From Pseudomonadota bacterium (GTDB lineage: Bacteria; Desulfobacterota; Syntrophobacteria; Syntrophobacterales; Syntrophobacteraceae): DNA of 40,981 nt. Shown here in pieces: positions 6,498 to 35,187 of the stretch. Below the pieces are notes generated by a model. The model searched no databases. It saw nothing but the letters and a program-made list of their open reading frames with translations, and was not told the DNA's origin. The translations under genes and the position numbers were made by a program. The stretch lies in contig JAEZHY010000019.1 in the NCBI GenBank assembly GCA_023416335.1, positions 1-40,981 on the forward strand. The letters are read 5' to 3'. How positions within the stretch are numbered: position 1 is the first letter of the stretch; every line of letters starts with the position of its first letter.

Positions 6498-6526
6498 GAG
6501 AACTCCTTGGGCTGGCTTTCCAGGAA

Positions 6527-6781: not shown

Positions 6782-6833
6782 GGGTCTCTGCCTCTTTCTT
6801 TTTATCGGTTCGCAAGGCAATCTGCTGAAAGGG

Positions 6834-11881: not shown

Positions 11882-14800
11882 GTGAGTTCCCCGGAAATGG
11901 GCAAAATGGTCGAAGCGGGAAGAAAAAAGCTGGAGCGATTGCTGGGCCGCCTTGTTCAGGTAAAGCCCTGCGCGAGGTCGTTTGGTGCGTCTGTTCTACT
12001 CAAGACAGCCTTGATCGCGGCGGGACACTTCCTCCTTGGATGGATGGCATTGCTGCTTCCCTCTCAGGGATATGCTCTTGCCGTCTGGCCGCCGGCCGGT
12101 CTTGCTCTTGCGGCGGGAATGCTCTGGGGACGCACCGCCTGGCCGGGGATTTTTATCGGAGCCTTTGCCGTAAACCTCTGGTTCTTCCAGTCCGCGGCTG
12201 CCTCTCCGCAGGCTCTGGTGTTCTCGTCGGCGATTTACGCCTTGGGGGTCTGTTTTCAGGCGGGGCTGGGATTATTCCTGGTCCGTCGTTTCGTTGGAAA
12301 ATCGTTCACTCTCGATAATGACCGGGAAGTGATTGCATTCCTGCTTCTATGTTGTCCATTGAGCTGCCTCGTCAACCCGACGGTTGGGGTGTTGAACCTG
12401 AGCCTGGCCGGGATGATTGCGAGGCAGGATCTCTGGTTCAACTGGTTAACCTGGTGGATTGGCGACATGCTCGGGGTGCAGGTGATCGCCCCTGTCATAC
12501 TGAGCCTTGCGGCCGGAAAGGGCGGGATCTGGAGGTCTAGAAGAGCCACGGTTGCCTTGCCCCTGTGCTGTATTTTCTCATTGATGATATGCGTCTACGT
12601 GTTCGTCAGCGTCAAAGAAGCCGAAAACAGCAGGGCCGAATTCAGACGCCATGTCGAAGTCATGGCCGGTTGTGTGAAACATGAATGGGAGTTTTACGTC
12701 GACGCGCTCTACTCTACCGCAGGATTTTTTGCAGCGGACGAAGAGGTTAAGCGTGGGGAATTCGGAGCTTTCGTCGGGTACTTTCTGTCTCGTCATCGTG
12801 GGATTCAGGCATTGGCGTGGGTACCCCGGATCACGGAAGCCGAGAGGACGAATTATGAGGAAGCGGCCGGGAAAGACGGCTGTCCAGGCTTCAAGATAAC
12901 CGGGCTGACGGAGCAGGGGCTGATTGCGGAAAGGCCGCACAGGCCGGAATACTTCCCACTGTATTATGTAGAACCGCGGGAAGGGAACGGGAGGATCCTC
13001 GGTTTCGATCTTTCTTCCGAAACAGAGCGTGCGAAGGCCCTGGAGAAGGCCGCCGGGACCGCCGCTCCGGTTGCAACCGGCCGGATCAGGCTCATGTACG
13101 ACGAGGAGGGCGAAAACGGTTGCCTCCTGTTGCTGCCGCTTTACGATGATCAGTCGTCCGCCTCCGGGGCCGGCGAGTCCCGAATTCTCAGAGGATTCGC
13201 CATGGGTGCTTTTCGTTTTCGCGATGCCATGCAGGCTGCGCTTGCGGGAATTTCCAGACAAGACGTCTATATAACTCTCAATGACGTCAGCGGTGGAGCG
13301 GATGAATGGCAGCCCCTTTACTCTTCAGGTCCCGTCGCTTCTGCCGAGCGCACCGGAGCCGAACTCGTTCCCTGGTTTTCCGAGCCCATCGAAATAGGTG
13401 GACGAAGCTGGAGGCTCGATATCACTCCTTCCACCGAGTATCTCGCAGCTCACCGGTCTCTCAAAGGATGGAGCGTATTGGTCGGCGGACTTCTGTTCAC
13501 GATGATGGCGAGTTCCTTTTTTCTTGTAATTACGGGGCGGACTGCGCGAATCGAAGGACTTGTGAGGAAGAGAACCGCGGCACTCAAAAACGAGATTGGC
13601 GAGAGGGTGCTTGCCGAGCAGGAACTATCGAAGCAGACGACCCTGCTTTTGGGACTCCTTGATTCCATTCCGGACATCATCTCTTTCAAAGACGTCGACG
13701 GTCTTTACCTGGGCTGCAATCCGGCATTTACAGCTCTTAAGGGGATGCCTCGGGAGGAGATCATCGGCAGGACGGACTATGATCTGTTCCCCGGCGAAGA
13801 AGCCGATTCCTACCGGCGAAACGACCGGATTGCGATGGACACGGGAGTGGCCCATCATAACGAAGAGCAACTCGATTATCCTGATGGCAGATGGAGGCTG
13901 GTTGACACGATAAAGGCCCCTCTGCGCAACCAGTCCGGTGAGACTATCGGCGTGCTCGGAGTAAGCCGGGATATTACAGAACGGAAAAGGCTCGAGGAAC
14001 TCCTGTTCGCTCGTGTGCGCCTGGCCGATTTTGCAGGCGGCCACACGGTCGACGAACTCCTTCATCATGCGGCGGAGCAAGCGGCGAGGCTCACCCAGAG
14101 CCGAACAGCTTTCTTTCACATCGTGCAGAAATGCCAAAATACCGCTCTCATGCAAGTCCTGTCCGGTACTTCCCCGGTATGTGAGATATCCGACCGCCTG
14201 AAACAGTGTTCAGGAACCTGCATAGACGACTGCCTGCGGCAAAAATGCCCTGTTATCCGAAATGACCATTCCTGCCGATGCAAGTTGACAGCCGTTCGAG
14301 AGGATGGAGTCACGCGCGAGATGGTGGTACCGGTGTCCCGCGACGACGAAGTAGCTGCCGTACTCGGGGTCGGCAATAAACCTGAAGACTACGGTCAACG
14401 CGATGTGGAAGTGGTCTCTCAGCTTGCCGATCTCACCTGGGACCTGGTCCTGGGTAAACAGGCCGAAGAGAATCTGCGGCTGGCAAAGGAAGAGTGGGAG
14501 CGCACTTTCGACGCAATGCCCGACCTGATCACAATACTTGATACGGAATTCCGCATAGTGCGCGCGAACAGGCAGATGGCCCACAGGGCAGGATTAACGC
14601 CGGAGCAGTGTGTGGGACGCTTCTGCTACGAGGTCATGCATGGGACCGACGGTCCTCCTGAATTTTGCCCGCATAAGAGGCTACTTGGCGAAGGTGAGTT
14701 TCAGTCCGTTGAAGTATATGAGCCGACGCTGAACGCGAGTTTCAGCATTACGACCACTCCCTTGCATGATGCCGAAGGCAAAGTGGCGGGGAGTATCCAT

Positions 14801-16900
14801 GTGGCACGGGACATTTCCGACCGCAAGCGAAACGAAGAGGCTTTGGAACGCTCCCGGACCGATCTCCAGGAAACGAACGAGCAACTGGAAACGGCTATAG
14901 AGCGGGCGAATGAAATGGCTGTGAAGGCAGAGCTGGCCAATGTCGCCAAGTCGGAGTTCCTGGCCAACATGAGCCATGAGATTCGCACGCCTATGAACGG
15001 AGTCATCGGCATGGCTGAGATACTGCTGGAAAGCGGACTGGAGCCGGAGCAGCGCAGATATGCCGAATTGGTGATGTCGAGCGCCGAGAGCCTGCTGATC
15101 ATTATCGACGATATTCTGGACCTCTCGAAGATAGAAGCCCGCAGACTCGAACTGGAAACACTTGAATTCGATCTTGGGGTTCTCCTTGAAGAAACCGTGG
15201 AGATGCTCTCAATTCGGTCCACAGAGAAGGGCTTGGACCTCGTCTGCCTGGTAGAGCCGGATGTCCCGTTGCTTCTGCTTGGAGACCAGGGGCGGTTGCG
15301 GCAGATAATTATCAATCTCGCGGGGAACGCCATCAAGTTTACCGAACGCGGCGAAATACTGATCCATGTGGAACTGATGAGTGGAGACAGTCGGGAAGCT
15401 CTGCTGCGCATTTCGGTTACCGATACTGGGATCGGAATCCCACCCGACCGGCTGAACGGTCTTTTCACTCCTTTTGCACAGCTTGATAGTTCTACCACGC
15501 GTAAATTCGGGGGGACCGGGCTGGGGCTTGCCATTTCCAGACAGCTCTCCGAGATGATGGGGGGGACGATAGGGGGCGAGAGCAGGGAGGGAAGGGGTTC
15601 TACATTCTGGTTCACCGTCGTTTTGAAAAGACAGGAGGGAAAACCGGATGTTCTCGAACGCGTTGCCGGGCTGAAGGGCACCAGGGTGCTCGTCGTGGAC
15701 GAGAGTCGTCTGAACAGGCGAAAGATAACCGGGCTTCTGAAAAACTGGGGATGTCGTTTCCATGAAGCCGCGCAAGCAGGCACGGTGCTCGAAATACTCC
15801 GGAATGCAGTCGCAATGGGCGACCCGTTCCAGATTGCCATCATCGATCTTTCCATTTCAAACGGCAGCGGGGCGGAACTGTGCAGGGATATCTCAGCTGC
15901 TGCTGAATTGGAAAAGATATGTCTGATTTCCATGTCTTCGCTTGGAAAGGGTGAGCATCGGAACGAATCCCGGCAAAGCTTTGCAGCAAAGCTGGAGAAG
16001 CCGGTCCGTCGAAAGCGGCTTTTTGAGTGCCTGCTTTCATGCCTGCATCCGGAATCGCCGGCTCAGGAAAAGAAAATAGAGGAGGGAGCGGATTCCCACG
16101 GTTTGAAGGTACCCCGGTCTGCGCGAATCCTGCTCGCTGAGGATAACGAAATCAATCGGCAGGTCGCTCAGAATTTCCTAAAGAAATACGGTTTCCAGGC
16201 CGATTTCGTCAGCACCGGTCGACAAGCGGTGAAAGCACTGGAACACACTTTCTACAACCTTGTCCTCATGGATTGCCAGATGCCCGAGATGGACGGCTAC
16301 GAAGCAACGGCAATCATTCGTGATCCCCAGTCACAGGTTCTCAATCACCAAGTCCCGATCGTGGCCCTTACAGCTCACTCGATGGATACCGACAGGGAAA
16401 AGTGTCTCACAGCCGGGATGAACGACTATCTCTCTAAACCGTTGCGGTTTGAGACATTCGGGGCAATGGTCGAACGCTGGATTTCCGGTCGGGTTGCGGA
16501 ACCCGGAGCCGAACCGGAACACGATAAAACTGATGAGAAAAAGGCGCCGATCTTCGATGAAGCCGATCTTTTACTGCGCCTGATGGGGGACAGTGAACTT
16601 GCACGGATCCTGATCGACGGCTTTCTCGGTGACGCAGGAAACCAGATTGTGTCCCTGAAAGAGTGCCTGAGTGCCGGTGATCTCCTTTCCACACGAAGGT
16701 TTGCTCACACATTAAAGGGTGCCGCCGCCAACATTGGAGCACCCCGCTTCAGGGCAGTTGCCTCCGAAATGGAAAAGGCGGCCGAGGCGGGCGATGCGGA
16801 GAGAGTGGGAGGCTTGCTCCCGGAGTTGGAAGAACAATTTGTACGTCTTGTGGAAGTGCTCGGGAATTATACCGGATCATCCGGAGAAGCCGAATTATGA
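11882..16900 (+). CDS. Giant hybrid sensor histidine kinase (MASE1-CHASE-PAS-GAF-PAS-HK-REC-REC-HPt)
   Basis: The ~1672-residue protein has these modules. A multi-helix MASE1-like membrane sensor spans ~39-246 (AVWPPAGLALAAGMLWG). A periplasmic CHASE-like domain spans ~253-460, and a last membrane helix ~529-553. PAS is at ~580-703, a cysteine-rich GAF at ~703-860 and a second PAS at ~870-983. HisKA has His1032 in MSHEIRTPMNG, and HATPase_c spans ~1130-1252 with N box and GGTGLGLAIS. REC1 is at ~1266-1387, with D-E instead of D-D in its acidic pair but its acceptor Asp and Lys kept. REC2 is canonical (Asp1464 in LMDCQMPEMDG), and an HPt module has His1609 in AHTLKGAAANIG. All phosphotransfer residues are therefore present. 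GTG 11882 has GGGGAA upstream; TTG 11840 or ATG 11897 are alternatives. Its stop overlaps the next start by 4 bases, making the receiver-phosphatase the likely recipient of its phosphoryl group. Confidence 0.88.
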   Translation: MSSPEMGKMVEAGRKKLERLLGRLVQVKPCARSFGASVLLKTALIAAGHFLLGWMALLLPSQGYALAVWPPAGLALAAGMLWGRTAWPGIFIGAFAVNLWFFQSAAASPQALVFSSAIYALGVCFQAGLGLFLVRRFVGKSFTLDNDREVIAFLLLCCPLSCLVNPTVGVLNLSLAGMIARQDLWFNWLTWWIGDMLGVQVIAPVILSLAAGKGGIWRSRRATVALPLCCIFSLMICVYVFVSVKEAENSRAEFRRHVEVMAGCVKHEWEFYVDALYSTAGFFAADEEVKRGEFGAFVGYFLSRHRGIQALAWVPRITEAERTNYEEAAGKDGCPGFKITGLTEQGLIAERPHRPEYFPLYYVEPREGNGRILGFDLSSETERAKALEKAAGTAAPVATGRIRLMYDEEGENGCLLLLPLYDDQSSASGAGESRILRGFAMGAFRFRDAMQAALAGISRQDVYITLNDVSGGADEWQPLYSSGPVASAERTGAELVPWFSEPIEIGGRSWRLDITPSTEYLAAHRSLKGWSVLVGGLLFTMMASSFFLVITGRTARIEGLVRKRTAALKNEIGERVLAEQELSKQTTLLLGLLDSIPDIISFKDVDGLYLGCNPAFTALKGMPREEIIGRTDYDLFPGEEADSYRRNDRIAMDTGVAHHNEEQLDYPDGRWRLVDTIKAPLRNQSGETIGVLGVSRDITERKRLEELLFARVRLADFAGGHTVDELLHHAAEQAARLTQSRTAFFHIVQKCQNTALMQVLSGTSPVCEISDRLKQCSGTCIDDCLRQKCPVIRNDHSCRCKLTAVREDGVTREMVVPVSRDDEVAAVLGVGNKPEDYGQRDVEVVSQLADLTWDLVLGKQAEENLRLAKEEWERTFDAMPDLITILDTEFRIVRANRQMAHRAGLTPEQCVGRFCYEVMHGTDGPPEFCPHKRLLGEGEFQSVEVYEPTLNASFSITTTPLHDAEGKVAGSIHVARDISDRKRNEEALERSRTDLQETNEQLETAIERANEMAVKAELANVAKSEFLANMSHEIRTPMNGVIGMAEILLESGLEPEQRRYAELVMSSAESLLIIIDDILDLSKIEARRLELETLEFDLGVLLEETVEMLSIRSTEKGLDLVCLVEPDVPLLLLGDQGRLRQIIINLAGNAIKFTERGEILIHVELMSGDSREALLRISVTDTGIGIPPDRLNGLFTPFAQLDSSTTRKFGGTGLGLAISRQLSEMMGGTIGGESREGRGSTFWFTVVLKRQEGKPDVLERVAGLKGTRVLVVDESRLNRRKITGLLKNWGCRFHEAAQAGTVLEILRNAVAMGDPFQIAIIDLSISNGSGAELCRDISAAAELEKICLISMSSLGKGEHRNESRQSFAAKLEKPVRRKRLFECLLSCLHPESPAQEKKIEEGADSHGLKVPRSARILLAEDNEINRQVAQNFLKKYGFQADFVSTGRQAVKALEHTFYNLVLMDCQMPEMDGYEATAIIRDPQSQVLNHQVPIVALTAHSMDTDREKCLTAGMNDYLSKPLRFETFGAMVERWISGRVAEPGAEPEHDKTDEKKAPIFDEADLLLRLMGDSELARILIDGFLGDAGNQIVSLKECLSAGDLLSTRRFAHTLKGAAANIGAPRFRAVASEMEKAAEAGDAERVGGLLPELEEQFVRLVEVLGNYTGSSGEAEL

Positions 16901-18048
16901 ATATACATGGATTTGGGAACAGGCTGCGCGAGCGTAAATCACACGAGGGAGGCGGTGTGAAAAATACGGTCGTGCTCATTGTCGATGACGATCCGACTAC
17001 TACTGTCATGCTGAAGCACATACTGCAGCAGGTGGGATTCCAAACGGCGTGCGCAACGAGCGGGGACGAAGGAATTACCCTGGCGCGCTCTCTGCGTCCC
17101 GACCTGATCCTCCTGGACGTGCACTTGCCGGACAAAAACGGATTCTCCGTCTGCAGGGATATTCGGTCAAATCCCGAGACCGCAGATACACCGATCATCT
17201 TTATTTCGGCAAACGAGGAAGTATCTTCGAAGGTCCTGGGCTTCGAAGCAGGGGGAGTTGACTACGTAACCAAGCCTTTGGCCGGTATCGAAGTGATCGC
17301 CCGTGTGAAGACCCACCTTCGGCTCAAGCACGCATTCGATACGCTGGCACGATTGCAGGCGGAACGCATCGAACGCATTGCGGCCACCCAGCACATGATT
17401 CTCCCTTCGCCGGCAAGTTTTCCATTCGCCCGCTTTGCCGTGTCCTTCAAGCAGATCCAAGGCGCCGGCGGAGATTTTTACGACGTCATCCCCGTCGGAG
17501 ACTTCCTTGTAGATTACGTAATAGCGGACGCGAGCGGCCATGACCTGGAAGCCTCTCTCTGGACTACCGCAATGAAAACTCTGCTCCATGAGCATGCCAG
17601 GCCTCTTTACGATCCGTCGGAAATCTTGCTCGCCATCAATAACTCCCTCTGCAGCGTTATGCCTGAGGGGCTTTTCTTCACAGTGCTCTATGCACGACTG
17701 AACAGGCAGACGGGCAGGTTGACCCTTGTAAACGGGGGCCATCCGCCGGCGATCTGCCTGAAAGGAAACACCGCCACCGTGGTCAGGCAGACAGGGGACG
17801 TCATAGGTTCTTTTTCCGACGCGAGCTTCGAGACAACTGAAATGTTTCTCGAAAAGGGGGACCGCTTCGCCCTGTACACGGATGGGCTTCTGGGCAACGG
17901 AAGAGAAAGGGAAATTATAGATCTGGCTGAAACATGCCGGGCATTTCGGGAGCTTCCCCTGGAAGCCATGGTGGAAAAGACGGCGGCAGCGATGCAGATG
18001 CGGACCGATATCCAGGACGATGTCGTTTTAATGGGGGTTGAGGTGTGA
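16897..18048 (+). CDS. Receiver domain-PP2C (RsbU/SpoIIE-type) phosphatase
   Basis: The 383-residue protein joins a receiver domain (residues ~23-140; acidic pair in VDDDP, acceptor Asp in LLDVHLPDKNG, Lys in YVTKPL) to a short coiled linker and an RsbU-like PP2C phosphatase (~175-383). Metal-ligand motifs are in place: GAGGDFYDV, IADASGHDLEASL, NGGHPPA, LYTDGLLGNG and DIQDDVVLM. Such enzymes dephosphorylate a STAS antagonist under receiver control. It overlaps the kinase gene by ATGA and the HATPase gene by GTGA, so the kinase, phosphatase, switch kinase and STAS genes are translationally linked. Confidence 0.92.
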   Translation: MNIHGFGNRLRERKSHEGGGVKNTVVLIVDDDPTTTVMLKHILQQVGFQTACATSGDEGITLARSLRPDLILLDVHLPDKNGFSVCRDIRSNPETADTPIIFISANEEVSSKVLGFEAGGVDYVTKPLAGIEVIARVKTHLRLKHAFDTLARLQAERIERIAATQHMILPSPASFPFARFAVSFKQIQGAGGDFYDVIPVGDFLVDYVIADASGHDLEASLWTTAMKTLLHEHARPLYDPSEILLAINNSLCSVMPEGLFFTVLYARLNRQTGRLTLVNGGHPPAICLKGNTATVVRQTGDVIGSFSDASFETTEMFLEKGDRFALYTDGLLGNGREREIIDLAETCRAFRELPLEAMVEKTAAAMQMRTDIQDDVVLMGVEV

Positions 18049-18479
18049 GCCTGCAGCCGGAAAATTCCGCACCGTGTGCATTGGTTCGTGAAATCTCATC
18101 CAGCGCAGAGGCTATAGATACTCTCTGTCATGAAGTGAGAACTCTTCTGCGGCGGCTCTCTTTTCCGGGCGAAGTCTTCGCAGTCGAGATGCTGCTGCGT
18201 GAGAGCCTCAACAACGCCATGGTTCACGGGCATCAGTGCGATCCGGGAAAGATCATCCGGCTGGAAATCACGATTGGAGGGAAATGGATCGTTTTGCGCG
18301 TAACGGATGAGGGCGGCGGGTTCGACCACCGGAAGTATTCCATATCGGTTCCCGATCCGGAGAGTACAAGGGGGCGGGGGTTGGTGATCTATTCTTTGTA
18401 TGCTCACCGTTTTTCTTTCAATTCCACGGGTAACGAAGTCTGCCTTTGGCGGGCCGTGACAGGAGATGAGCGATCGTGA
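18045..18479 (+). CDS. RsbW-like HATPase switch kinase / anti-sigma-type factor
   Basis: The 144-residue protein is a stand-alone GHKL ATPase domain of the RsbW/SpoIIAB type. The N box is LLRESLNNAMVHGH (residues ~47-60), the G1 box is VTDEGGGFDH and the G2-like segment is STRGRGLVIYSLY. Such proteins phosphorylate a STAS antagonist on Ser/Thr and sequester a target, classically a sigma factor. The target here is not encoded next door; whether it is a sigma factor or the CheA complex is open. GTG 18045 overlaps the phosphatase stop, and its own stop overlaps the STAS start. Confidence 0.88.
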   Translation: MSLQPENSAPCALVREISSSAEAIDTLCHEVRTLLRRLSFPGEVFAVEMLLRESLNNAMVHGHQCDPGKIIRLEITIGGKWIVLRVTDEGGGFDHRKYSISVPDPESTRGRGLVIYSLYAHRFSFNSTGNEVCLWRAVTGDERS

Positions 18480-18787
18480 AAGAATTCGAGTTGAAACGGA
18501 ATGGTGAATCACTGGGGGTGGTACTCGGGGGAGATCTGACAGCCTCGATGGTTCCCGAACTGAAATCCGCTCTTCAAAAAGCAACCGGGGAGGGAGTGTT
18601 GGAAGTCGATTTCGATTTGAGCAACACCGCTTTTATCGATTCGACCGGAATCGGTCTCCTCATTGCCACTTACAACAGCTTGTCCAAAAAAAACGGGACC
18701 GTGCGGGTCGTTATGGTCTCCGAAGACATTTACGGCCTGCTCCGGAGCATGCGCCTCGAAAAAAGGCTCTGTGTGGTCAGGCGCTGA
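18476..18787 (+). CDS. STAS-domain anti-sigma factor antagonist (RsbV-like)
   Basis: The 103-residue protein is a single STAS domain. The diagnostic stretch FDLSNTAFIDSTGIGLLIAT (residues ~44-63) contains the phosphorylatable Ser in DSTG used in SpoIIAA/RsbV switching. When unphosphorylated, such proteins bind the HATPase partner and release its target; the upstream PP2C would regenerate this form. GTG 18476 overlaps the previous stop (GTGA), with GGAGA 9 bases upstream. The cheA gene begins 11 bases after its end, so the switch and the chemosensory genes form one block. Confidence 0.92.
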   Translation: MKEFELKRNGESLGVVLGGDLTASMVPELKSALQKATGEGVLEVDFDLSNTAFIDSTGIGLLIATYNSLSKKNGTVRVVMVSEDIYGLLRSMRLEKRLCVVRR

Positions 18788-18798
18788 GAGGATAATAC

Positions 18799-21700
18799 AT
18801 GGAAATGCAGGACGACCTCACAAGGGAATTCGTCGCCGAAGCCCGCGAACATCTGGCTGACATGGAGACAGACCTGCTTGCCATCGAGGAAGCGGGTGCC
18901 GATATCGACGAAGAACTCGTGAACAAGGTGTTTCGCGCGGCACATTCCATAAAAGGTGGGAGTGCCTTCTTCGGCCTGAGCAAGATCAAGGAACTCGCCC
19001 ATAAGACCGAGACCGTGCTCGACATGATACGGTCGAGGAAGATGGTTCCGAATCCCGAGATCACGAATATCCTTCTTGCCTCGTTCGACAAGCTCAGGGA
19101 CATGATCAACAATATCGGCCGAAGCGAGGAGTTCGACATAGAAGAAGATGTCGCGAGCCTTTCCGGCCTTGCTTCCTCATACCTCCCGGAAAACCGGAAG
19201 GATTCGCTGAACCGGGTCGCCGTTCTCCATGCAGAAAACGAGCAGGAGACCGTCGGAATTCCTGCCGTCGATCTGGAGCGGGCAAGACGAATCGGCCAGT
19301 TTATCTATCGCATAGACTACGACCTGATTCACGACATCGAGCGGCGCGGAAAAACCGTTCTGCAGGTATTTAAGGAACTCTATGAACTTGGCGAAATCCT
19401 GGGCTGCAATCTTGATTTCTCGGCCGTCGGGACGCTGGACGATCCTGTCTCGAACCAGATCCCGTTAAGCCTGACATTCGCTTCGATCCTCGAACACGAC
19501 ATAGTCGTGAGCCTGTTCGGGGTGGAAAGCGAGAAGGTCCGGCAGCTGCACAGTACGGAAATGGAGGGGCGGGAGTCGGGTGAAGCGACCGAACCCGCGA
19601 GGTCTGTGCCGGAGAGCTTTCAGCCCGATCTTGAACCGGCGGTCGTTACGCCGGCTGCCGAGCAGTTCCGCGAATTCGATGCACCGCAGGGAGCCGTTAC
19701 GGTTTTCCCCGAAAGCAGGGAACCTGAGCCGAAGCCCGTTCCCGGATCGATTCCAAATGAGAGTACACTGCGGGTTGATGTGGGGCTGCTCGAATCGCTC
19801 ATGAACCTGGCGGGGGAACTCGTTCTGAGTCGGAATCAACTGCGCGAAGCAGTTGCCAACAACGATCGCCGGTTGCTCGTGGCCAGTGCCCAGCGGATCA
19901 ATCTCGTCACTTCCGAACTTCAGGATGCCATCATGCAGACCCGGATGCAGCCGATCGGCAACGTATTCGGGAAATTCCCCCGTGTCGTCAGGGACATTGC
20001 CCGTTCTGCAAGCAAGGAAATACAGCTCGACATCCGCGGCAAGGATGTGGAACTGGACAAGAGCCTGATCGAAGGCCTTTCCGATCCCCTGACCCACATG
20101 GTTCGCAACGCCGCGGATCACGGCATCGAAATGCCCGATGATCGCAGCCGCAAAGGCAAAAAACGTTCCGGAACAATCAGGCTGGAGGCCAGGCACGAAG
20201 CCGGCCAGGTAGTGGTGGAAATCGCCGATGACGGAAAGGGACTCGACCCGGAACGCATTGCGGCAAGCGCCGTGAAAAAAGGCCTGATCACCCGGGACAG
20301 GCTGCAGGGCATGTCGGATAAGGACAAGATGGCCCTGGTTTTCCTGCCGGGTCTGTCTACCGCCGAGAAGGTCTCGGACCTCTCCGGCCGTGGTGTCGGA
20401 ATGGACGTTGTCAAAACCAATCTCGACCGGCTTGGCGGGAAGGTTGAAATCGAGTCGGAACCCGGAAAAGGCACCTTATTCCGTATTAAGCTCCCTCTGA
20501 CCCTGGCCATTATTCCATCTCTGATAGTGACGGTCGGAGGAGAACGTTTCGCCGTCCCGCAAATCAATGTTGTGGAACTGCTCAGAATACGGGCCGAGCA
20601 GGTGAAAAGAAGAATAGAAGTGGTCGGCGATGCCGAAGTATTGATCCTGCGCGACCAGATTGTGCCGCTTGTCCGCTTTTCCAGCTTCCTCGGGCTTCTT
20701 CCGACTTACATCGATCCCAATACGGGAAGGGAGGAAATCTCCCGGCGGACAAGACTTGCCGACAGACGTTCGCCTCATTCCGAAGTGCCGGCAATGACCG
20801 GTACCGGAATGAAGCTGGAAGAACGCCGGCAGTCAGAAGGCAGGCGCCACAGTGCTTCGAGCGATATCGAACTGGTGGTCGTGACCACCGGAACGATGCA
20901 GTACGGATTGGTCGTGGACTCGTTCCAGAATAACGAGGAGATTGTGGTGAAGCCCGTCGGCCGCCACCTGAAAGGACTCCAGGAGTATGCCGGGGCCACC
21001 ATTATGGGAGACGGCAAGGTTGCCCTGATCCTTGACGTTGCGGGTCTGGCCGCGAAAGCCGACCTGAAGCACGTCTCCGGGTCCAGGCGAGCACTGGAAC
21101 TGGCGCAGGAGGCCGAAAGGGAAAAGCTCCAGGACACGCATTCGTTTCTTCTTTTTTACAATTCGCCTGAAGAGCAATGCGCAATTCCCCTGGATACGGT
21201 GCTTCGGGTCGAACGTATTTCCTCCCGGCAAATTGAAAAGATAGGCGGCCGAAGAACAATGCAGTATCGGGGCGCTTCACTCCCGCTTGTTACCCTTTCC
21301 GATGCCGCGCAGGTCCAAAATGTAGTGGAGGAGCGGGACCTCGCCGTGATCGTATCCAGTGTGCGCGGCCGTGAAGTCGGTCTGGTTGGGGCGATGCCGG
21401 TGGACGTCGTCGAAAGTCACGCGGAAATCGACCAAATTACGCATCGTCAGACGGGCATCTCCGGATCCGCGATAATCCGCGACAAAACGGTCCTGCTGGC
21501 AGATGTCTATGAACTGGTCGATGCCGTCTACCCGGAATGGGGAATTGTCAGGGAAAAGCAGAAAAAGGAAGAAGACGAGCCCTTAACCCTGCTCCTGGCT
21601 GAAGACTCCGATTTCTTTCGCTCGCAGGTCAGACGATACCTCGAAGAAGGCGGCTACGCCGTTCTGGATGCACCGGACGGTCAGGCTGCCTGGGAAATAC

Positions 21701-21948
21701 TGCTGGAAAACGTCGAATCGATCAAGGCTGTCGTGACCGATATCGAAATGCCGCGCCTGACGGGACTCGGCCTTACGCAGAAAATCCGCTCGGACCCTAT
21801 GGTCTCCGCGCTGCCCGTCATAGGCCTGACTTCCCTGGCCGGGGACGACGACATCGCCAAAGGCAAAGAGGCTGGGATCACGGAATACCAGATTAAAATG
21901 GACCGGGACAAGCTGCTTGGATCGTTGCGAGAGTTCCTTGGCAGATGA
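18799..21948 (+). CDS. cheA: Hybrid chemotaxis histidine kinase CheA with two CheW modules and a receiver
   Basis: The 1049-residue CheA-class kinase has an N-terminal HPt (phosphoacceptor His49 in RAAHSIKGGSAFFG), a linker/P2-like region (~155-260) and a dimerisation domain (~321-380, VGLLESLMNLAGELVLSRNQ). HATPase (~420-565) has MVRNAADHGIE, ADDGKGLDPERI and SGRGVGMDVV. A CheW-like regulatory domain at ~567-775 is interrupted by a charged insertion near 650-690. A second CheW-like domain lies at ~783-915 and a receiver at ~929-1049 (acceptor in VVTDIEMPRLTG). The fused receiver may take the place of CheY or act as a phosphate sink; no separate cheY is nearby. It lies between the STAS and MCP genes. 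Confidence 0.93.
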   Translation: MEMQDDLTREFVAEAREHLADMETDLLAIEEAGADIDEELVNKVFRAAHSIKGGSAFFGLSKIKELAHKTETVLDMIRSRKMVPNPEITNILLASFDKLRDMINNIGRSEEFDIEEDVASLSGLASSYLPENRKDSLNRVAVLHAENEQETVGIPAVDLERARRIGQFIYRIDYDLIHDIERRGKTVLQVFKELYELGEILGCNLDFSAVGTLDDPVSNQIPLSLTFASILEHDIVVSLFGVESEKVRQLHSTEMEGRESGEATEPARSVPESFQPDLEPAVVTPAAEQFREFDAPQGAVTVFPESREPEPKPVPGSIPNESTLRVDVGLLESLMNLAGELVLSRNQLREAVANNDRRLLVASAQRINLVTSELQDAIMQTRMQPIGNVFGKFPRVVRDIARSASKEIQLDIRGKDVELDKSLIEGLSDPLTHMVRNAADHGIEMPDDRSRKGKKRSGTIRLEARHEAGQVVVEIADDGKGLDPERIAASAVKKGLITRDRLQGMSDKDKMALVFLPGLSTAEKVSDLSGRGVGMDVVKTNLDRLGGKVEIESEPGKGTLFRIKLPLTLAIIPSLIVTVGGERFAVPQINVVELLRIRAEQVKRRIEVVGDAEVLILRDQIVPLVRFSSFLGLLPTYIDPNTGREEISRRTRLADRRSPHSEVPAMTGTGMKLEERRQSEGRRHSASSDIELVVVTTGTMQYGLVVDSFQNNEEIVVKPVGRHLKGLQEYAGATIMGDGKVALILDVAGLAAKADLKHVSGSRRALELAQEAEREKLQDTHSFLLFYNSPEEQCAIPLDTVLRVERISSRQIEKIGGRRTMQYRGASLPLVTLSDAAQVQNVVEERDLAVIVSSVRGREVGLVGAMPVDVVESHAEIDQITHRQTGISGSAIIRDKTVLLADVYELVDAVYPEWGIVREKQKKEEDEPLTLLLAEDSDFFRSQVRRYLEEGGYAVLDAPDGQAAWEILLENVESIKAVVTDIEMPRLTGLGLTQKIRSDPMVSALPVIGLTSLAGDDDIAKGKEAGITEYQIKMDRDKLLGSLREFLGR

Positions 21949-22014
21949 TCCGGTTCACAAACATAAATTATCCATTATGGGCGTAACGGGCTTCATAAAA
22001 CGAAGGAGAAGAAG

Positions 22015-23679
22015 GTGAGCGTACTGACAAACATGAAAATCGGAAAAAGACTCGGGCTTGGTTTCGGCATTATGGTGCTGATGCTGCTCGGAATGATGAC
22101 CGCGGCGATCTGGGGACTTGCCTCCCTGGACGACTCGATGGGTCAGATAAGCCGGGAGGCGCACGTTTCCAGGCTGGCCGCAGCAGTCGACTCGGATGTG
22201 CGGGACATAAACACCAGAATGGCTACACTTATCATGTTTCAGGACAAGGCGAAAAAAGAGGAGGTGCTGAGAGGCCTGCAAACGCTGAGAGAACGATACA
22301 AGAAGCGGGTTGACGAACTGAAGTCCCTCACCAAGACCGATACGGGTCGGGAGAAACTGGCGAATCTGGAACAGACCATCGCCAACGGCCGGGATACCAA
22401 TAACAAGGCCACTGAGTTGTCTATGGCGGGCAAAAATGATGAGGCTCTCAAGGTAATGGCCGAGGGAACCCACCTGATGGAGAAGATATACCAGGCTGTT
22501 GATGACCTGGAAGAATGGCGTGGGAAGCGGATGAATGAGATCCAGGAAATGGCGTCGGCCAGCTACTCCAAAATAAGGTTGCTTCTGGTCCTGGTCGGCT
22601 CTCTTGCCCTGGTGATTGCCGTTGCTTTCGGCATCTTCCTGACGCGCAGCATTGTCGGGCCGATTCGAAAAGGTGTTGAATTTGCCGCGGTCATGGCTAA
22701 GGGCGATATGACCCGGAAACTCGATATCATTCAGAAAGACGAAGTGGGACAACTTGCTGAAGCCCTCAATGAAATGGCCGGGAGTATGCGCGGCATGATA
22801 GCCGATATCGACGGCGGGGTGCAAACTCTGGCTTCCTCGTCTGCCGAACTCTCGGCAATATCGGACCAGTTGGCCGGCGGTGTGAAGGAAATGTCCGGCA
22901 AAGCGACAATGGTGGCGGCCGCGGCTGAGGAATCGAGCGCAAATACCAATTCCGTTGCGGCCAGCATGGAACAGATGACCACCAATCTAACTTCCGTTGC
23001 GAGTGCGACGGAAGAGATGAGCGCCACGGTCGGGGAGATAGCGTCCAATTCGGAGAAGGCGAGGGCGATAAGCAGTGAGGCAACGCAGCAGGCCCAGGCA
23101 GTTTCGACGATGATGAAGGAACTGGGTCGGGCTGCCCAGGAGATCGGCCAGGTTACCGAAACCATTACGAGCATATCGGCCCAGACCAATTTGCTTGCCC
23201 TGAACGCAACGATTGAAGCGGCGCGGGCCGGTGCCGCGGGCAAAGGATTTGCGGTTGTCGCAAATGAAATAAAGGAACTTGCTCAACAGACCGCTGCCGC
23301 AACGGAAGACATCAAGGGCAAGATCGCCGGAATTCAGGCATCGACGGGCGGCGCCATGGCTGATATCGAGAAGATATCACAGGTAATCAGGCAGGTGGGC
23401 GAGATCGTTGCGACCATCGCGGCGGCCATCGAAGAACAGTCCGTGGTGACCAGGGATGTGGCTTCCAACATCGCCCAGGCTTCCATGGGAGTGAAGGATT
23501 CGAACGAGCGCGTGGCTCAGACGGCTTCCGTCGCTCAGTCCATTGCTCAGGATATTTCCAGGGTCAATGAGACGATAGGCGAGATCAGCCGCGGTGAAGA
23601 GCATATCCAGGCAAGCTCCAACGAACTCTCGAAGCTCGCCGAGCAGCTCAGAGTGATGGTCCAGAGATTTCAGGTATAG
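22015..23679 (+). CDS. Methyl-accepting chemotaxis protein
   Basis: The 554-residue transmembrane receptor has helix 1 at ~12-37 and a periplasmic four-helix-type region of ~150 residues. Helix 2 is at ~188-208, a HAMP linker follows to ~262, and a long helical signalling domain ends the protein. The signalling tip contains [17 protein letters not shown], the near-invariant CheA/CheW contact hairpin. No C-terminal pentapeptide tether for CheR is present; the protein ends QRFQV. Start GTG 22015 follows AAGGAG. As the only receptor here, next to cheA, cheW, cheB and cheR, it is probably the dedicated input of this array. The ligand is unknown. Confidence 0.94.
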
Positions 23680-23752
23680 AAGCTGGTTGCGGCAGTAAAC
23701 TTCCTCAGGCAGTTGGTCGGCGGTTTCAGGTTAGAGAAGAAAGGATTCTTTC

Positions 23753-24223
23753 ATGGTGGAACACAACGGGACCATCGGGGAGCAGGAGATGCTCGTCTCG
23801 ACATTTTTCCTCGGAGACGCGGCCTTTGGACTGGATACCGAGCAGGTCCAGGAGGTCGTCCGCGTCGGACACATCACTCCGGTCCATCACGCTCCGGGGT
23901 TCGTGCTCGGTGTGATGAACCTGCGCGGCCGTATCTCAACTGTGATCGACCTCGGGGTTAAACTGGAACTCGATCCGACCGAGATAGATTCCGAAAGCCG
24001 CATTTTTATCGTCGACTGGCAGGGGGAGCAAATTGGGTTGCTTGTAGACCGCGTTGCCGACGCGATCACCGTGGATCGCGGCGAACTCAAACCCGCGCCC
24101 GAGAATGTGCGCGGCATCCAGGGCCGGCAGTTCAAGGGGGTCTTTCAGGTCGACGGACTGCTGTTTGCACTCCTGGATATGGCCGAAGTCCTCAACGGAG
24201 AAGCGGGAACCGAAGCGGTTTAG
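23753..24223 (+). CDS. cheW: Chemotaxis coupling protein CheW
   Basis: The 156-residue single CheW domain links receptor tips to CheA. Characteristic stretches are FFLGDAAFGLDTEQVQEVVR near the N-terminus, HHAPGFVLGVMNLRGRISTV in the middle (family N-x-RG) and FQVDGLLFALLDMAEVL at the end. Length is normal for the family. ATG 23753 begins MVEHNG. The gene lies 73 bases after the MCP gene and 13 bases before cheB. It is the only free-standing coupling protein in the window, alongside the two CheW modules inside CheA. Confidence 0.94.
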   Translation: MVEHNGTIGEQEMLVSTFFLGDAAFGLDTEQVQEVVRVGHITPVHHAPGFVLGVMNLRGRISTVIDLGVKLELDPTEIDSESRIFIVDWQGEQIGLLVDRVADAITVDRGELKPAPENVRGIQGRQFKGVFQVDGLLFALLDMAEVLNGEAGTEAV

Positions 24224-24236
24224 TCAAGGAGAGAAT

Positions 24237-25355
24237 ATGCCACTCAGGGTCCTGGTAGCTGACGATTCGGTGCTTTTTCGCCGCATACTTACGGAGGCCC
24301 TCTCCACCCTTCCCGATGTAACCGTCGTGGGAAGCGTGCCCAACGGGAAACTCGCAGTGAGACGTGTCGGTGAACTCAAGCCCGACCTGCTTACTCTTGA
24401 TATGGAAATGCCCGAGATGGACGGTTTAGCGGTTCTCGACGCCCTTCGGCAGGCGGGTGAAGATACCATGGTAATAGTCGTCAGCGCGCTGACGCACCGG
24501 GGCGGACGGCTCACCATGAAAGCTTTGGAAAAAGGGGCTCAGGACTTCATAACCAAACCCGATACGGCCGGCGTGGAACAAAGCCGTGCGGCGATCCTTA
24601 AGGAACTGGCTCCACGCCTGCGCGCACTTGCTCATCGGCGGGACATAAGGAAAATCCTGCGGCAGGCCCCGAAGCCGGGCGTATCCGAGGCGAGTGCGCC
24701 GAAGGCGGCGACAGCCCGGGCGGCCGGGACGCAGAGTCCTGAACCGATTGCCCGACCTGCGCCCCTTCTGAAACCGGAAATGGTGCTGATCGGGGTCTCG
24801 ACGGGCGGACCGAACGCGCTTGCGCAGATCTTGCCCGAAATTCCCGCGACACTTGGTGTCCCGGTGCTGGTCGTGCAGCATATGCCGCCGATATTCACGC
24901 AATCCCTGGCCGAAAGTCTCTCCGCAAAGTGTGCCCTTCAGGTTTGTGAAGCTTCTCATGGGGACAGGGCGGAGGCGAATACGGTTTACATAGCCCCCGG
25001 AGGCAAACAGATGCGGCTGGTCGCAGGGCCGGGAGGGCGGAAGATCATAGAAATCACGGACGATCCTCCCGAGAACAACTGCAAACCCGCTGTTGACTAT
25101 CTCTTCCGATCGGTCGCCAACAACTTTCCCGGGCGTGCAATGGCGGTAATTCTCACGGGAATGGGAAGCGACGGTACCCTGGGGCTCAGGCTTCTCAAGC
25201 GTCGAGGCTGCTACATCGTTGCTCAGGACGAAGCGACCAGTGTCGTTTTCGGAATGCCGAAGGCTGCAATCGATGCCGGTGTCGTCGATGCCGTGCTGCC
25301 TATGGAGGCCATAGCGGGCCGGATAGTCGCCTCGGTTCGGGGATGCTGCCCATGA
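24237..25355 (+). CDS. cheB: Chemotaxis glutamate methylesterase/deamidase CheB
   Basis: The 372-residue protein has an N-terminal receiver (Asp55 in LTLDMEMPEMDG), a linker of ~60 residues rich in Ala/Pro, and a C-terminal methylesterase. The catalytic triad is visible: Ser188 in GVSTGGPN, His215 in VVQHMPP and Asp312 in TGMGSDGT. It removes methyl groups from receptor glutamates and closes the adaptation loop with CheR. Start ATG 24237 has AAGGAGA 5-10 bases upstream; the frame stays open further upstream through cheW but that is a shadow. The stop overlaps the cheR start as ATGA. Confidence 0.95.
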   Translation: MPLRVLVADDSVLFRRILTEALSTLPDVTVVGSVPNGKLAVRRVGELKPDLLTLDMEMPEMDGLAVLDALRQAGEDTMVIVVSALTHRGGRLTMKALEKGAQDFITKPDTAGVEQSRAAILKELAPRLRALAHRRDIRKILRQAPKPGVSEASAPKAATARAAGTQSPEPIARPAPLLKPEMVLIGVSTGGPNALAQILPEIPATLGVPVLVVQHMPPIFTQSLAESLSAKCALQVCEASHGDRAEANTVYIAPGGKQMRLVAGPGGRKIIEITDDPPENNCKPAVDYLFRSVANNFPGRAMAVILTGMGSDGTLGLRLLKRRGCYIVAQDEATSVVFGMPKAAIDAGVVDAVLPMEAIAGRIVASVRGCCP

Positions 25356-26197
25356 GCATTCTCACTTCCGATCAACTCGGCCTCTGGTCGCGTTACGTCT
25401 ATTCCATATGCGGCATCCAAGTGGACAACTCGAAAGGATACCTCATCGAGACGCGCCTTGGCTTTCTGCTTCGGGAAACGGGGAGCACCAACTTTGCTGA
25501 ACTGTACAGCAGGGTGAAAGCCGATCCGACAAATGGATTGAAGCGGAAAGTAATCGATGCCATCACGACTCAGGAGACTTCCTTTTTCCGGGACACTTCG
25601 CCTTTTGAGTTGCTCCAGCACAAGATCATCCCGGATCTTATCGACAAACGCTCAAAAATGCCGGGCAACGCCGGTCGCGTTCCGATCAGGATTTGGAGCG
25701 CAGCCTGCTCTACCGGACAGGAAGTTTACTCGACAGCCATCGTGCTGAAGGAACTGCTTGGGGACCTCAACCGGTACGATATCCGCATACTCGGGACCGA
25801 CATTTCGGATAAAGCGGTTGCGCATGCCAGCTACGGCCAGTACAGCAAACTCGAAATGGATCGGGGCCTGGGGTCCGACAAAGTGCTGAAGTATTTTACT
25901 TCCCAGGGGCAGGTATGGAAGGTTCGCGACGAGATACGCGCAATGGCGGTGTTCAAGACAACGAACCTCCTGGAACCTTTCATGTTTCCGAATAAATTCG
26001 ACATCATTTTTTGCCGGAATGTCGCCATATATTTTTCCGAGCAGGACAAAATAAAACTGTACAGGTCGATTGCAAAAGTCTTGGCCCCGGACGGTTATCT
26101 CATCATAGGCTCGACGGAATCCATCACGGGCCTGTGCCCCGAGTTCGAGCCCAAACGCTACCTGCGGGCGGTGTTTTACCAGTTCAAGGGGGCATGA
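25352..26197 (+). CDS. cheR: Chemotaxis receptor methyltransferase CheR
   Basis: The 281-residue protein has the CheR N-terminal helical domain (~1-80) and a SAM-binding domain. Diagnostic stretches are TTQETSFFRDTSPFELLQ (~70-87), WSAACSTGQEVYSTAI (motif I, ~115-130), ILGTDISDKAVAHAS (~147-161) and DIIFCRNVAIYFSEQ (~215-229). It methylates glutamates on the receptor using SAM. ATG 25352 overlaps the cheB stop by 4 bases, so the adaptation pair is translationally coupled; an ATG at 25343 in the same frame adds three residues. No TPR or sensor domain is appended. It is the last gene of the signalling block. Confidence 0.95.
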   Translation: MSILTSDQLGLWSRYVYSICGIQVDNSKGYLIETRLGFLLRETGSTNFAELYSRVKADPTNGLKRKVIDAITTQETSFFRDTSPFELLQHKIIPDLIDKRSKMPGNAGRVPIRIWSAACSTGQEVYSTAIVLKELLGDLNRYDIRILGTDISDKAVAHASYGQYSKLEMDRGLGSDKVLKYFTSQGQVWKVRDEIRAMAVFKTTNLLEPFMFPNKFDIIFCRNVAIYFSEQDKIKLYRSIAKVLAPDGYLIIGSTESITGLCPEFEPKRYLRAVFYQFKGA

Positions 26198-28271: not shown

Positions 28272-29171
28272 TTAGATAAAGTTCACCAGATTGAGGTCCT
28301 TCATCATTCCCGTCACCTGGAGGGCTGCCTGAAAAGCCGTCTGCTCCTGCTGAATGGTCACGATTGCGTCGGTCAGATCGGTTTCCTGCAGGTCGGAAAG
28401 ATTTGATTTCTCGTTCACTTTGATAGTGTTTATGGCCGATACCTGGTTGTCGTACGAAGCCAGCCTTGTGCCTACTATGGTCGATTGCTTGCCGATCGAT
28501 GTGAAAGCGTCCTGAAGGGTTCCCAGCTTATTGGTTATCGTCGTCGCATCGCCCGTGCGGATTGCTTCCCTGAGGTTCCACATCTCGGTTACGACATTGA
28601 GCGTGGTCCCCCCGCTCGTAAAATCCATCACGTCAGGGCCGGTCTGGTTTATCGTCGAAGTCCCGGTTCCCCCCCGATCCGTTCTCACGCTGATGTGGTC
28701 CGTATCGCCATTGTATGTTATCGTCCCGGAAGTAAAAGTGTAGGGCGGGGTGGAAGTCTTGGTTCCGCTGAACAGGTATTTGTCGCCATACATCGAGTTG
28801 GCCCCGCTTACCGTCTCTTTGATGATTTCGTCCATTTGCGCAACCAATGCGTCTATTTGGTCGGGGGCACTCGGGCTTTGGGAGGATATGGCGGTCTGAC
28901 GCGCCTGGCTCACCAGGTCCGAAAGATGATTGAGGGCGCTGTCGGTTGCATTATTCCACCCCGTCGCATAATTGATATTGCCGAGAATGGCATCGTACTC
29001 TCTCAGACCCTGTTTCACATCCATGGACTGAGCCCATGAGAATGGGTCATCCGACGGGGAATTGAACCGTACGCCCGAAGAAATCTGGTCCGACAGGCGC
29101 ATCATGCTTTCCTGTTTCTGATTAAGAGAAATGAGGGTCGTCTCTTTTTGAATCGCGAATGAAACACGCAT
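28272..29171 (-). CDS. flgL: Flagellar hook-filament junction protein FlgL
   Basis: FlgL (HAP3) joins the hook to the filament and is exported through the flagellar type III system. The 299-residue protein has the flagellin-like N-terminal helix with LSDQISSGVRFNSPSDDP (residues ~26-43), the variable middle with SGTKTSTPPYTF, and a C-terminal helix rich in Gln/Thr (ATIVTIQQEQTAFQAALQ). The length is normal. GAGGAAA precedes ATG 29171. It follows flgK by 18 bases as the last gene of the operon, with a hairpin beyond its stop. Confidence 0.93.
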   Translation of the reverse strand: MRVSFAIQKETTLISLNQKQESMMRLSDQISSGVRFNSPSDDPFSWAQSMDVKQGLREYDAILGNINYATGWNNATDSALNHLSDLVSQARQTAISSQSPSAPDQIDALVAQMDEIIKETVSGANSMYGDKYLFSGTKTSTPPYTFTSGTITYNGDTDHISVRTDRGGTGTSTINQTGPDVMDFTSGGTTLNVVTEMWNLREAIRTGDATTITNKLGTLQDAFTSIGKQSTIVGTRLASYDNQVSAINTIKVNEKSNLSDLQETDLTDAIVTIQQEQTAFQAALQVTGMMKDLNLVNFI

Positions 29172-29189
29172 GGTCTTTTCCTCGCCTGA

Positions 29190-30479
29190 TTATCCCATCT
29201 GAATAACAGTGTTCAATAATTGCGCGACTTTGTCTATTACTTTGGCCGCCGCCTGATAGACCTGCTGGAACTGGAGAAGGTCAACCAGTTCCTCATCGAG
29301 CGAAACCCCTGAAATAGCCTGCTGCTGTGTCTGGAGTTGCGAACGGAGGGCGGTATTGTAGTCGTAAGTCGTATTTGCCTGTTGTGCGTCGGTTCCGATT
29401 TCTTGCTGTATGTCGCTCAGGTAACCTGCCAGTGTCGTTGTCTTCCCGGTAAACGCGATCTGCGTTCCCTGCAGTCCCGCCAGGGCCAGCGCTCGGGTGC
29501 TTTCGTCGCTGGAAGTCACACCGTTCAGGAAGGTCGTTGATGCGACGATATCCGTTGCGTTGGCGCCGGTAAACACCGCCGGGCCGCTGTTTGTGCCGTG
29601 GAGCGAATTCACCTGGGTAATGAGGGTCGAAGTGAATTCATTCAACCGGTTCATATATCCGTTGATGTCGGTCTGTGCTTCCGCAAGGCCGGCAAGCTCG
29701 CCCCCCTGGATCTGCTGGGTGGCGGTATCGATATGCGTAGCGGTTCCGCCCGATACTATCGTGAATGACCCATTTTGATCGGTTGTCGTTATGGTGACGT
29801 GACCGCTTGCGTCTTCCGCATAATGTACCGGCATGATCTGGGCAAGTTCCTGCATTGCCTGGTACCGCGCATCCCGCAGATCGTTTGCCTTGTACTGGCT
29901 CGTTTCAGTATTCGAGATGGCGTTGTTGTATTCCGCTATCTGGTCTATCAGATTATTGGCACGGGTCCCGGCATCCTCGATCCTGGCAGGGATTTCGTTT
30001 GTAGCGATCGTGTTCAACCGGTCGTAGGCGGTCCTAATAGTCTTCGCGAGGTTTTCCGCCGACTTGTAGACATCGGTCTGCGCCGTTGCGTCGGTAGGAT
30101 CCTGGGCCAGTTTGTCCCATGCATCATAAAAGTCCCCGAGCGCCTTCGAAATTCCGGTGGAACCGTCGTCGGCTACGGCAGCCTGTATGTTTTCCAACTC
30201 GGATGCGAGTGCCTTGTATTGCGACTCGTCGGTAACACTTTCCGAAAGCCGCTGTTCGAGGAACTGATCTCTCGCCTGGGTGATTGTGTAAACGTTCGCT
30301 CCCGTCCCGAGCCATCCGTAGGTGGAGCGAATTGGAGGATCGGTCTGCAGGACCGCTTTCTGCCGCGCATATCCCGTGGTCTGGGCATTCGAAATATTGT
30401 GCGAAGCCGTCTGAATCTGGAGTTGTGTATTCAGCAGCGTCTGCTTCGATGTTTCGAGTGTTAGAGTCAATCCGGCCAT
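29190..30479 (-). CDS. flgK: Flagellar hook-associated protein FlgK (short form)
   Basis: FlgK (HAP1) forms the first junction ring above the hook. The 429-residue protein keeps both terminal D0/D1 helices: NTQLQIQTASHNISNAQTTG at ~17-36 and VSLDEELVDLLQFQQVYQAA near the C-terminus. It is about 120 residues shorter than the enterobacterial protein, with the loss in the surface-exposed middle, which varies widely in the family. GGGAGA precedes ATG 30479. Only 2 bases separate it from the flgN stop, consistent with its export chaperone being made just before it. Confidence 0.93.
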   Translation of the reverse strand: MAGLTLTLETSKQTLLNTQLQIQTASHNISNAQTTGYARQKAVLQTDPPIRSTYGWLGTGANVYTITQARDQFLEQRLSESVTDESQYKALASELENIQAAVADDGSTGISKALGDFYDAWDKLAQDPTDATAQTDVYKSAENLAKTIRTAYDRLNTIATNEIPARIEDAGTRANNLIDQIAEYNNAISNTETSQYKANDLRDARYQAMQELAQIMPVHYAEDASGHVTITTTDQNGSFTIVSGGTATHIDTATQQIQGGELAGLAEAQTDINGYMNRLNEFTSTLITQVNSLHGTNSGPAVFTGANATDIVASTTFLNGVTSSDESTRALALAGLQGTQIAFTGKTTTLAGYLSDIQQEIGTDAQQANTTYDYNTALRSQLQTQQQAISGVSLDEELVDLLQFQQVYQAAAKVIDKVAQLLNTVIQMG

Positions 30480-30481
30480 GG

Positions 30482-30931: not shown

Positions 30932-30989
30932 AATTTTGTCTCCCTGTCTGGACGATTTCAGGGCCGTAAGGCGGTCTGAAAACTCGATC

Positions 30990-31364: not shown

Positions 31365-31390
31365 TTTGATTATCCCTTCCCTCGATGAGA

Positions 31391-32506: not shown

Positions 32507-32524
32507 GTGCCTCCTCACCCTGAC

Positions 32525-33289: not shown

Positions 33290-33321
33290 CTTTCCTCCTC
33301 GCGGCAGGCCTGCGCGCGCAT

Positions 33322-34341: not shown

Positions 34342-34361
34342 GTTCGTTTCCCCTCTCAGCA

Positions 34362-35141: not shown

Positions 35142-35187
35142 TCCTTACCTCCTCCGCGCCTGGTCGATCTTGTTCATTCAGCAGGTC

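Follow-up and report, generated by a model that had tools for sequence, protein, structure and literature searches.

That partner switches occur in chemosensory gene clusters is known already from the F7 class. In the sections of Ortega and colleagues that deal with them (PMC7184735), genes for a serine phosphatase and two anti-sigma factor antagonists surround cheY, cheA and further che genes in F7 stage 1 clusters, and the authors themselves call the function of F7 stages 1 and 2 unclear. In Shewanella oneidensis, che1 comes with CrsR/CrsA, a partner switch on RpoS on which Che1 was proposed to act (PMC9855816, Fortier and colleagues, in the portion on this system). Here we describe a block of nine genes that joins a che operon to an RsbU/RsbW/RsbV-like switch within a stretch of 40,981 nucleotides from a bacterium of the Syntrophobacteraceae (assembly GCA_023416335.1, contig JAEZHY010000019.1), called the window below. 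Like the F7 clusters, it brings together che genes, an anti-sigma factor antagonist and a serine phosphatase, but these clusters have cheY and cheD, and in the excerpts concerned their CrsR/HsbR-type protein joins receiver, PP2C and HATPase in one chain, whereas the window has an F5-class CheA, neither cheY nor cheD, and a separate phosphatase and HATPase. It is this combination of the F5 class, the lack of CheY, the kinase and phosphatase as separate proteins, and an occurrence in other phyla that is new.

Other described systems share parts of the design. In the HptB–HsbR–HsbA pathway of Pseudomonas aeruginosa, as given in the relevant part of PMC6482189, hybrid kinases feed a receiver-PP2C protein, which in turn determines how far a STAS-type antagonist is phosphorylated, with FlgM/FliA, RpoS and HsbD as outputs, but there are no che genes, the Hpt protein is separate and the HATPase sits on the HsbR chain. 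The Bacillus switches RsbU–RsbW–RsbV and SpoIIE–SpoIIAB–SpoIIAA have the three activities, the folds and the residues in common with the window, which differs in that the block contains no sigma gene, its phosphatase carries a receiver and che genes are attached. CheS of Sinorhizobium and Agrobacterium is, in the section of a review devoted to it, a STAS-only protein encoded in a che cluster; the STAS proteins of the loci described here keep a serine that those of two other che operons lack, CheS itself lying outside this comparison. Alphaproteobacterial F5 operons, such as those of Azospirillum, share with the window a CheA with two CheW domains and a receiver, the order cheA-cheW-cheB-cheR and one clade, but in these a single-domain cheY separates cheW from cheB, and the stretch read contains no PP2C, HATPase or STAS gene. 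No F5 che operon with a partner switch was found in the open-licence literature, from which most subscription papers are missing.

The gene order on which the initial annotation had built its model recurs elsewhere: the arrangement REC-PP2C/(RsbW)/STAS/CheA, where REC-PP2C is a receiver joined to a SpoIIE/PP2C phosphatase, is found in 21 genomes besides the window, spread over six phyla. These comprise Hydrogenedentota (3), Verrucomicrobiota (5), Acidobacteriota (5), Fibrobacterota (2), Bacteroidota (1), and a Syntrophobacterales metagenome-assembled genome (MAG) and its class (5), the group of some of them being that of the genome on which the search was centred. A contig scan with an alignment of 11 REC-PP2C sequences gave 66 loci (numbered L below, genomes G). 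The first 19 were read for context: STAS and CheA lie downstream of REC-PP2C in 15 and were not seen in the part read of L011, L013, L017 and L018. The remaining 47, more distant (mostly 24–51% over part of the query), were left out of this count. Whole-genome searches located the cassette in G053, G061, G062, G065, G379 and G688 as well. Among relatives above 60% identity in a protein search, two are named, Syntrophobacter and Syntrophobacteraceae MAGs at 69% and 64%. Such proteins are rare: at E ≤ 1e-90, with only the best few candidates scored per genome so that the counts are lower bounds, REC-PP2C is present in at least 5 of 55 genomes in the class of G014, at least 3 of 68 in the phylum of G001, at least 3 of 297 in that of G004 and at least 2 of 288 in that of G008, where G200 has no CheA in the part read. 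A plasmid search returned no close REC-PP2C relative (listed rows at 24–31% identity) and supplied CheA references; on a Xanthomonas sacchari plasmid (L118:4728-7146), a STAS gene without the serine (DATG) lies directly 5' of cheA, with several mcp genes.

Active sites are conserved along with gene order. Across the 22 cassettes, window included, the REC-PP2C receiver invariably has Asp74, Lys126 and the second acidic residue, the first being D in 19 and E in 3. The five metal-site Asp of PP2C are found in all 22 and the sixth position (D196) in 18. The N-box E and N of the RsbW-like kinase are kept in 20/20, the two Fibrobacterota cassettes having no such gene there, and the STAS serine in 22/22, or in 33 of 34 rows once 12 other F5 loci are added (the exception, L170, is a STAS-only locus). 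Among the che proteins, the Hpt His of CheA is kept in 22/22, the Asp of its receiver in 21/21 readable cases and the D, S and H of CheB in 14/14. PP2C metal site, kinase N-box and phosphorylatable serine are all those of an RsbU/RsbW/RsbV-type switch, RsbV is the only solved relative of the window STAS protein at E ≤ 0.001 and SpoIIAB is the best solved relative of its HATPase. RsbW and STAS form a single protein in L004, and the same fusion occurs in 84 of the 117 relatives of this protein in the database, those named by organism being mostly Terracidiphilus. A fold prediction of the L004 fusion, made with an alignment of 45 natural homologs (mean pLDDT 79.2, pTM 0.57), has domains that match SpoIIAB and SpoIIAA as well as RsbV/RsbW, and at this pTM no trustworthy docking between HATPase and STAS, and nothing is drawn on the interface. 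Another apparent fusion, P0244 (163 aa, on a contig of 3099 bp), in which half a STAS domain is spliced to sigma-70 region 2, is probably an assembly chimera and was not used as evidence.

Tree and architecture together place the window CheA in the F5 class; the tree holds few reference classes, and the label rests on architecture and on Azospirillum. In the passages of Berry and colleagues on CheA domains (PMC10782961), 99% of F5 CheAs carry a duplicated CheW, receivers occur mainly in CheAs of the F3, F5, ACF and Tfp classes, and in Desulfobacteraceae an insertion of 50 residues splits the first CheW of CheA. The window CheA agrees on each point, Pfam matching CheW in three stretches that amount to two domains, the first one split, and a receiver at the C-terminus (CheW domains inside CheA were counted by Pfam, a profile from stand-alone CheW having missed them). 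A tree of the CheA core (49 rows) gathers the 22 cassette CheAs in a single clade (support 95/96), nested in a larger one of 29 (100/99) whose other members are two Azospirillum sequences, Rhodovastum, Microvirga and three paralogs that cassette genomes encode. CheW matches in two stretches in each Azospirillum CheA and in one stretch in that of Rhodovastum, all three with a receiver; the receiver is weak, below cut-off, in L104 and L107, and absent in the relatives L115 and L179. The CheA of Escherichia coli, our F7 reference, lies outside both clades; it lacks a receiver and combines a single CheW with a CheY-binding domain.

A further difference from other F5 operons concerns CheY. As the initial annotation had stated, no cheY, cheC, cheD, cheZ or sigma gene is present among the nine genes according to Pfam, and none lies between them, because the largest gap is only 73 bp. 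Nor is there a single-domain receiver between REC-PP2C and cheR in any of the 15 cassettes readable over that span (window, L003, L004, L009, L010, L012, L014, L015+L091, L019, L081, L082, L083+L084, L085, L087, L089+L090); receivers lie behind cheR in L084 and L091, and a receiver match in L083 turned out to be the start of cheB at the edge of the stretch read. Of the seven cassettes cut off short of cheR, one, L001, does have a single-domain receiver. In contrast, a single-domain receiver is present in six F5 operons that fall outside the cassette clade (L121, L122, L123, L094, L120 and L119), three of these receivers being confirmed by Pfam; it is behind cheR in L123 and divergent beside cheA in L119, and the stretch read of the six shows no match to PP2C, to HATPase_c_2-like proteins or to STAS. 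L121, L122 and L123 sit in the cassette-bearing genomes G009, G004 and G688, respectively.

Because the first loci had been found through their phosphatase, a search was also run through CheA. Matches at E ≤ 1e-200 occur in 29 of 257 genomes in the phylum of G014, six of them with the full switch (G014, G740, G913, G935, G902 and G860) and ten with a context made unreadable by contig ends or by the 1.5 kb read. In the phylum of G004, 7 of 297 genomes match at E ≤ 1e-150. Three have window-type cassettes and G395 is unreadable, while in G515 and G454 (L179:10829-14857, L180:3680-7429) a single PAS-HisKA-HATPase-REC(s)-SpoIIE-HATPase_c_2 protein precedes STAS and an F5 CheA, and in G625 SpoIIE and HATPase_c_2 are fused (partial read). 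Histidine kinase, receiver-phosphatase and HATPase can therefore form one machine. All four members of the window CheA clade met in this way (G014, G004, G379 and G017) have the switch. On a CheA tree of 66 rows, switch and no switch are separated by at least five changes, several states coming from 1.5-kb flanks and L130 being scored STAS-only though its contig ends just upstream. On this sampling, the link between switch and F5 is old or recurrent within the class and not universal. Beside two F5 che operons that lack the full switch lies a gene for a HEAT-repeat protein with a C-terminal receiver (L161:3844-5493, L171:4331-5986), and L163, L173 and L176 have receiver proteins of similar size.

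Within the cassette, the two halves have partly separate histories. Window CheA groups with L081, L082 and L085 (96/96), as do CheB (95/90) and CheR (82/82), and window REC-PP2C groups with L001 (100/98). In approximately unbiased (AU) tests, placing the window with L081, L082 and L085 was rejected for REC-PP2C (p 3e-54) and STAS (p 2e-4) and not for RsbW (p 0.29), p values that are descriptive as this grouping was picked after identities had been seen; joining window and L001 was not rejected for CheA (p 0.07). L081 is 67% and 71% identical to the window in CheA and CheB, and 39, 39 and 35% in REC-PP2C, RsbW and STAS. Distances correlate best between CheA and CheB (0.95), followed by REC-PP2C and STAS (0.89), CheA and STAS (0.84) and CheA and REC-PP2C (0.81). 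Judged from these trees and distances, REC-PP2C and STAS have been exchanged against the che genes with gene order kept, and the history of STAS follows that of the phosphatase.

Taken together, these features incline us, with some reserve, towards an F5-class operon without single-domain CheY whose output would be a Ser/Thr partner switch fed by CheA and, here, by the hybrid kinase as well. Chemoreceptors, CheW and the F5 CheA, joined in the window by the membrane hybrid kinase, would phosphorylate the receiver of REC-PP2C; the activated phosphatase would strip phosphate from Ser56 of the STAS protein, which in its dephosphorylated form would bind the RsbW-like kinase and make it let its target go. 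Without signal, the kinase would re-phosphorylate STAS and keep hold of the target. CheB and CheR would provide adaptation, and the CheA receiver might, at a guess, drain phosphate. That phosphorylation turns the phosphatase on is taken from HsbR, as presented in part of PMC6482189; the direction of phosphoflow, like the single transcript, we infer. The core of this relay is favoured because neighbourhood and active sites are conserved, because CheY is present in six F5 operons without the switch, and because natural fusions stand before STAS and CheA. The proposal of the initial annotation, in which CheA and the hybrid kinase both feed the receiver-phosphatase, gains support as regards this core and less as regards the hybrid kinase. 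Such a kinase lies next to the switch in the window and L015 and behind cheR in L084 and L091, and none adjoins in most other cassettes, which puts it outside the conserved core as far as gene neighbourhoods tell.

The place of the hybrid kinase is one of several observations that weigh against the relay. The switch phosphatase of G740 and G913 is a SpoIIE protein without Pfam receiver (G935 is similar in a partial read), so the input there must differ. Window REC-PP2C is closer to L001 than to the loci with the closest CheA; CheA and its supposed partner have therefore not been kept together. In neither Fibrobacterota cassette does an RsbW gene stand between REC-PP2C and STAS, and L001 has CheX and a CheY-like receiver, both between RsbW and STAS. 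In the CheA search, cheA is accompanied by STAS alone of the switch genes in 6 of the 29 genomes (G856, G882, G764, G921, G963 and G822, G963 being read 1.5 kb upstream) and by none of them in 7 (G900, G848, G880, G805, G965, G803 and G884).

The receiver-less phosphatases and the weaker hold on CheA as the input are the reason why our preference is a reserved one and why a reading with two pathways sharing an operon, rather unlikely as we judge it, keeps some weight. The hybrid kinase would then drive the switch, with CheA phosphorylating CheB and an unlinked motor CheY. The HisKA-REC-PP2C-HATPase fusions do show such a switch driven by a kinase other than CheA, the hybrid kinase overlaps REC-PP2C in the window, some REC-PP2C relatives have no che genes in the part read (L013, L017, L073 and L077) and cassette genomes have further che genes. 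However, in most cassettes read far enough upstream the hybrid kinase does not adjoin, whereas CheA always follows STAS, and the association has been kept across six phyla. The position of STAS beside cheA, which recurs in six F5 loci that have neither phosphatase nor HATPase close by, could instead mean that it acts like Sinorhizobium CheS, which according to the review section cited above binds CheA; STAS would then tune phosphoflow in the array, and the switch would regulate the array rather than be its output. This is distinctly improbable, since cassette STAS proteins keep the phosphorylatable serine in 22/22 while those of two other che operons (Leisingera and Xanthomonas) lack it, S. 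meliloti CheS being outside the comparison, and since STAS was exchanged along with REC-PP2C and not with CheA. Because STAS also adjoins cheA without the rest of the switch, the two ideas can be combined: in a large non-alphaproteobacterial F5 branch the switch would replace CheY, the MCP/CheA array and the hybrid kinase would converge on it, and unphosphorylated STAS would bind CheA as well. We regard this as improbable, but if it were true the switch would serve the array both as output and as feedback, and the array would be read out through dephosphorylation of a serine. As to a chance neighbourhood of unrelated genes, all parts do come from large families (6037 of 7999 scored proteins are REC-PP2C relatives), but an order shared by 22 loci in six phyla with conserved active sites refutes it for practical purposes.

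Our best guess for the output of the relay is that, by way of a sigma factor or other regulator held by the kinase, it steers the expression of flagellar or lifestyle genes rather than the motor directly, because FliM is found in 20 of the 21 cassette genomes, at least two CheA dimerisation domains occur in each of the 21, and the published relatives act on RpoS and FlgM/FliA. The FliM count points to flagellated hosts, though the genomes are not independent and CheA genes in general may show such a link to FliM; no FliM was found in G004. Base rates are 29/288 in the phylum of G008, 46/68 in that of G001 and 70/297 over the cut-off in that of G004 (78 at E ≤ 0.001), FliM is present in all five Verrucomicrobia/Opitutae cassette genomes, and it occurs also in G012, G016 and G200, which have REC-PP2C with no CheA seen beside it. 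In G008, G013, G015 and G053, another CheA lies within ~25 kb of fliM, and a separate motor system is therefore likely there.

In the window, the sigma gene fliA lies outside the block, in a flagellar run from flgL to flhF on the minus strand to the right (28272-40718). To the left of the block, also on the minus strand, are csrA and fliW (6063-6820). Besides the cassette, the ~21 kb between csrA-fliW and flgL contain genes for a DnaJ-domain protein, an acyl-CoA dehydrogenase, a ChaN/PDZ protein and a pyridine nucleotide-disulphide oxidoreductase that carries a rhodanese domain. Because fliW adjoins flgL in G379, an Acidobacteriota cassette genome with its cassette ~31 kb off on the same contig, the block may have been inserted between fliW/csrA and flgL, a reading based on this one comparison.

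The features of the block are collected in the table. The single strand, the order, the 4-bp stop/start overlaps (at 16897, 18045 and 18476) and the 11 bases between the STAS gene and cheA at 18799 are as first annotated. Further on, cheA and mcp are 66 bp apart, mcp and cheW 73 bp, and cheW and cheB 13 bp, and cheB and cheR overlap by 13 bp. The hybrid kinase frame is open from 11840, with a GTG start at 11882. NCBIfam gave no listed match over its curated cut-off for eight of the nine proteins (all but CheB), among the best 25 matches in the case of three. Sites of sigma-70 type number 12, where shuffled sequence gives 6.6 ± 2.8, and terminator-like sites number 17 against 17.8 ± 4.4; a sigma-28-like pattern (≤3 mismatches) matches 36 times where 24.9 matches are expected, a count that 2 of 100 shuffles also attained, these matches being scattered across the window. 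No conclusion, on a single transcript or otherwise, is built on any of these counts.

Features of the che/partner-switch block (positions in the window)
Feature	Position	Strand	Basis and remarks
Hybrid histidine kinase, MASE1-CHASE-PAS-GAF-PAS-HisKA-HATPase-REC-REC-Hpt	11882..16900	+	Pfam; accessory input
Receiver + SpoIIE/PP2C phosphatase (REC-PP2C, RsbU-like)	16897..18048	+	Pfam; phospho-Asp74
RsbW/SpoIIAB-like HATPase (HATPase_c_2; anti-sigma kinase type)	18045..18479	+	Pfam; closest solved relative SpoIIAB
RsbV-like STAS protein, Ser56	18476..18787	+	Pfam; solved relative RsbV
CheA, F5-class: Hpt, dimerisation, HATPase, two CheW, C-terminal receiver	18799..21948	+	Pfam; tree
Methyl-accepting chemoreceptor (MCP), 4HB + HAMP	22015..23679	+	Pfam
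CheW	23753..24223	+	Pfam
CheB, receiver + methylesterase, ATG at 24237	24237..25355	+	Pfam
CheR	25343..26197	+	Pfam

Some cassettes have further genes in or near them. In one from Fibrobacterota (L003:16827-17676), two hemerythrin-domain genes lie among the che genes and may link the cassette to oxygen sensing, and in L084 (5845-6777) a receiver-GGDEF protein is encoded 3' of cheR and the hybrid kinase in the same direction, a possible second-messenger branch.

The coupling of a chemosensory array to a Ser/Thr switch, these observations suggest, is not peculiar to gammaproteobacterial F7 systems but extends, across six phyla, to the F5 class familiar from flagellar chemotaxis, and there to operons where CheY is lacking. 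The question of what such an array puts out becomes testable, as phosphorylation of the STAS protein can be measured and the HATPase can serve as bait for its target. G004, G009 and G688, each with two F5 operons, one with CheY and the other with the switch, would allow two outputs of a single type of array to be compared as they occur in nature.

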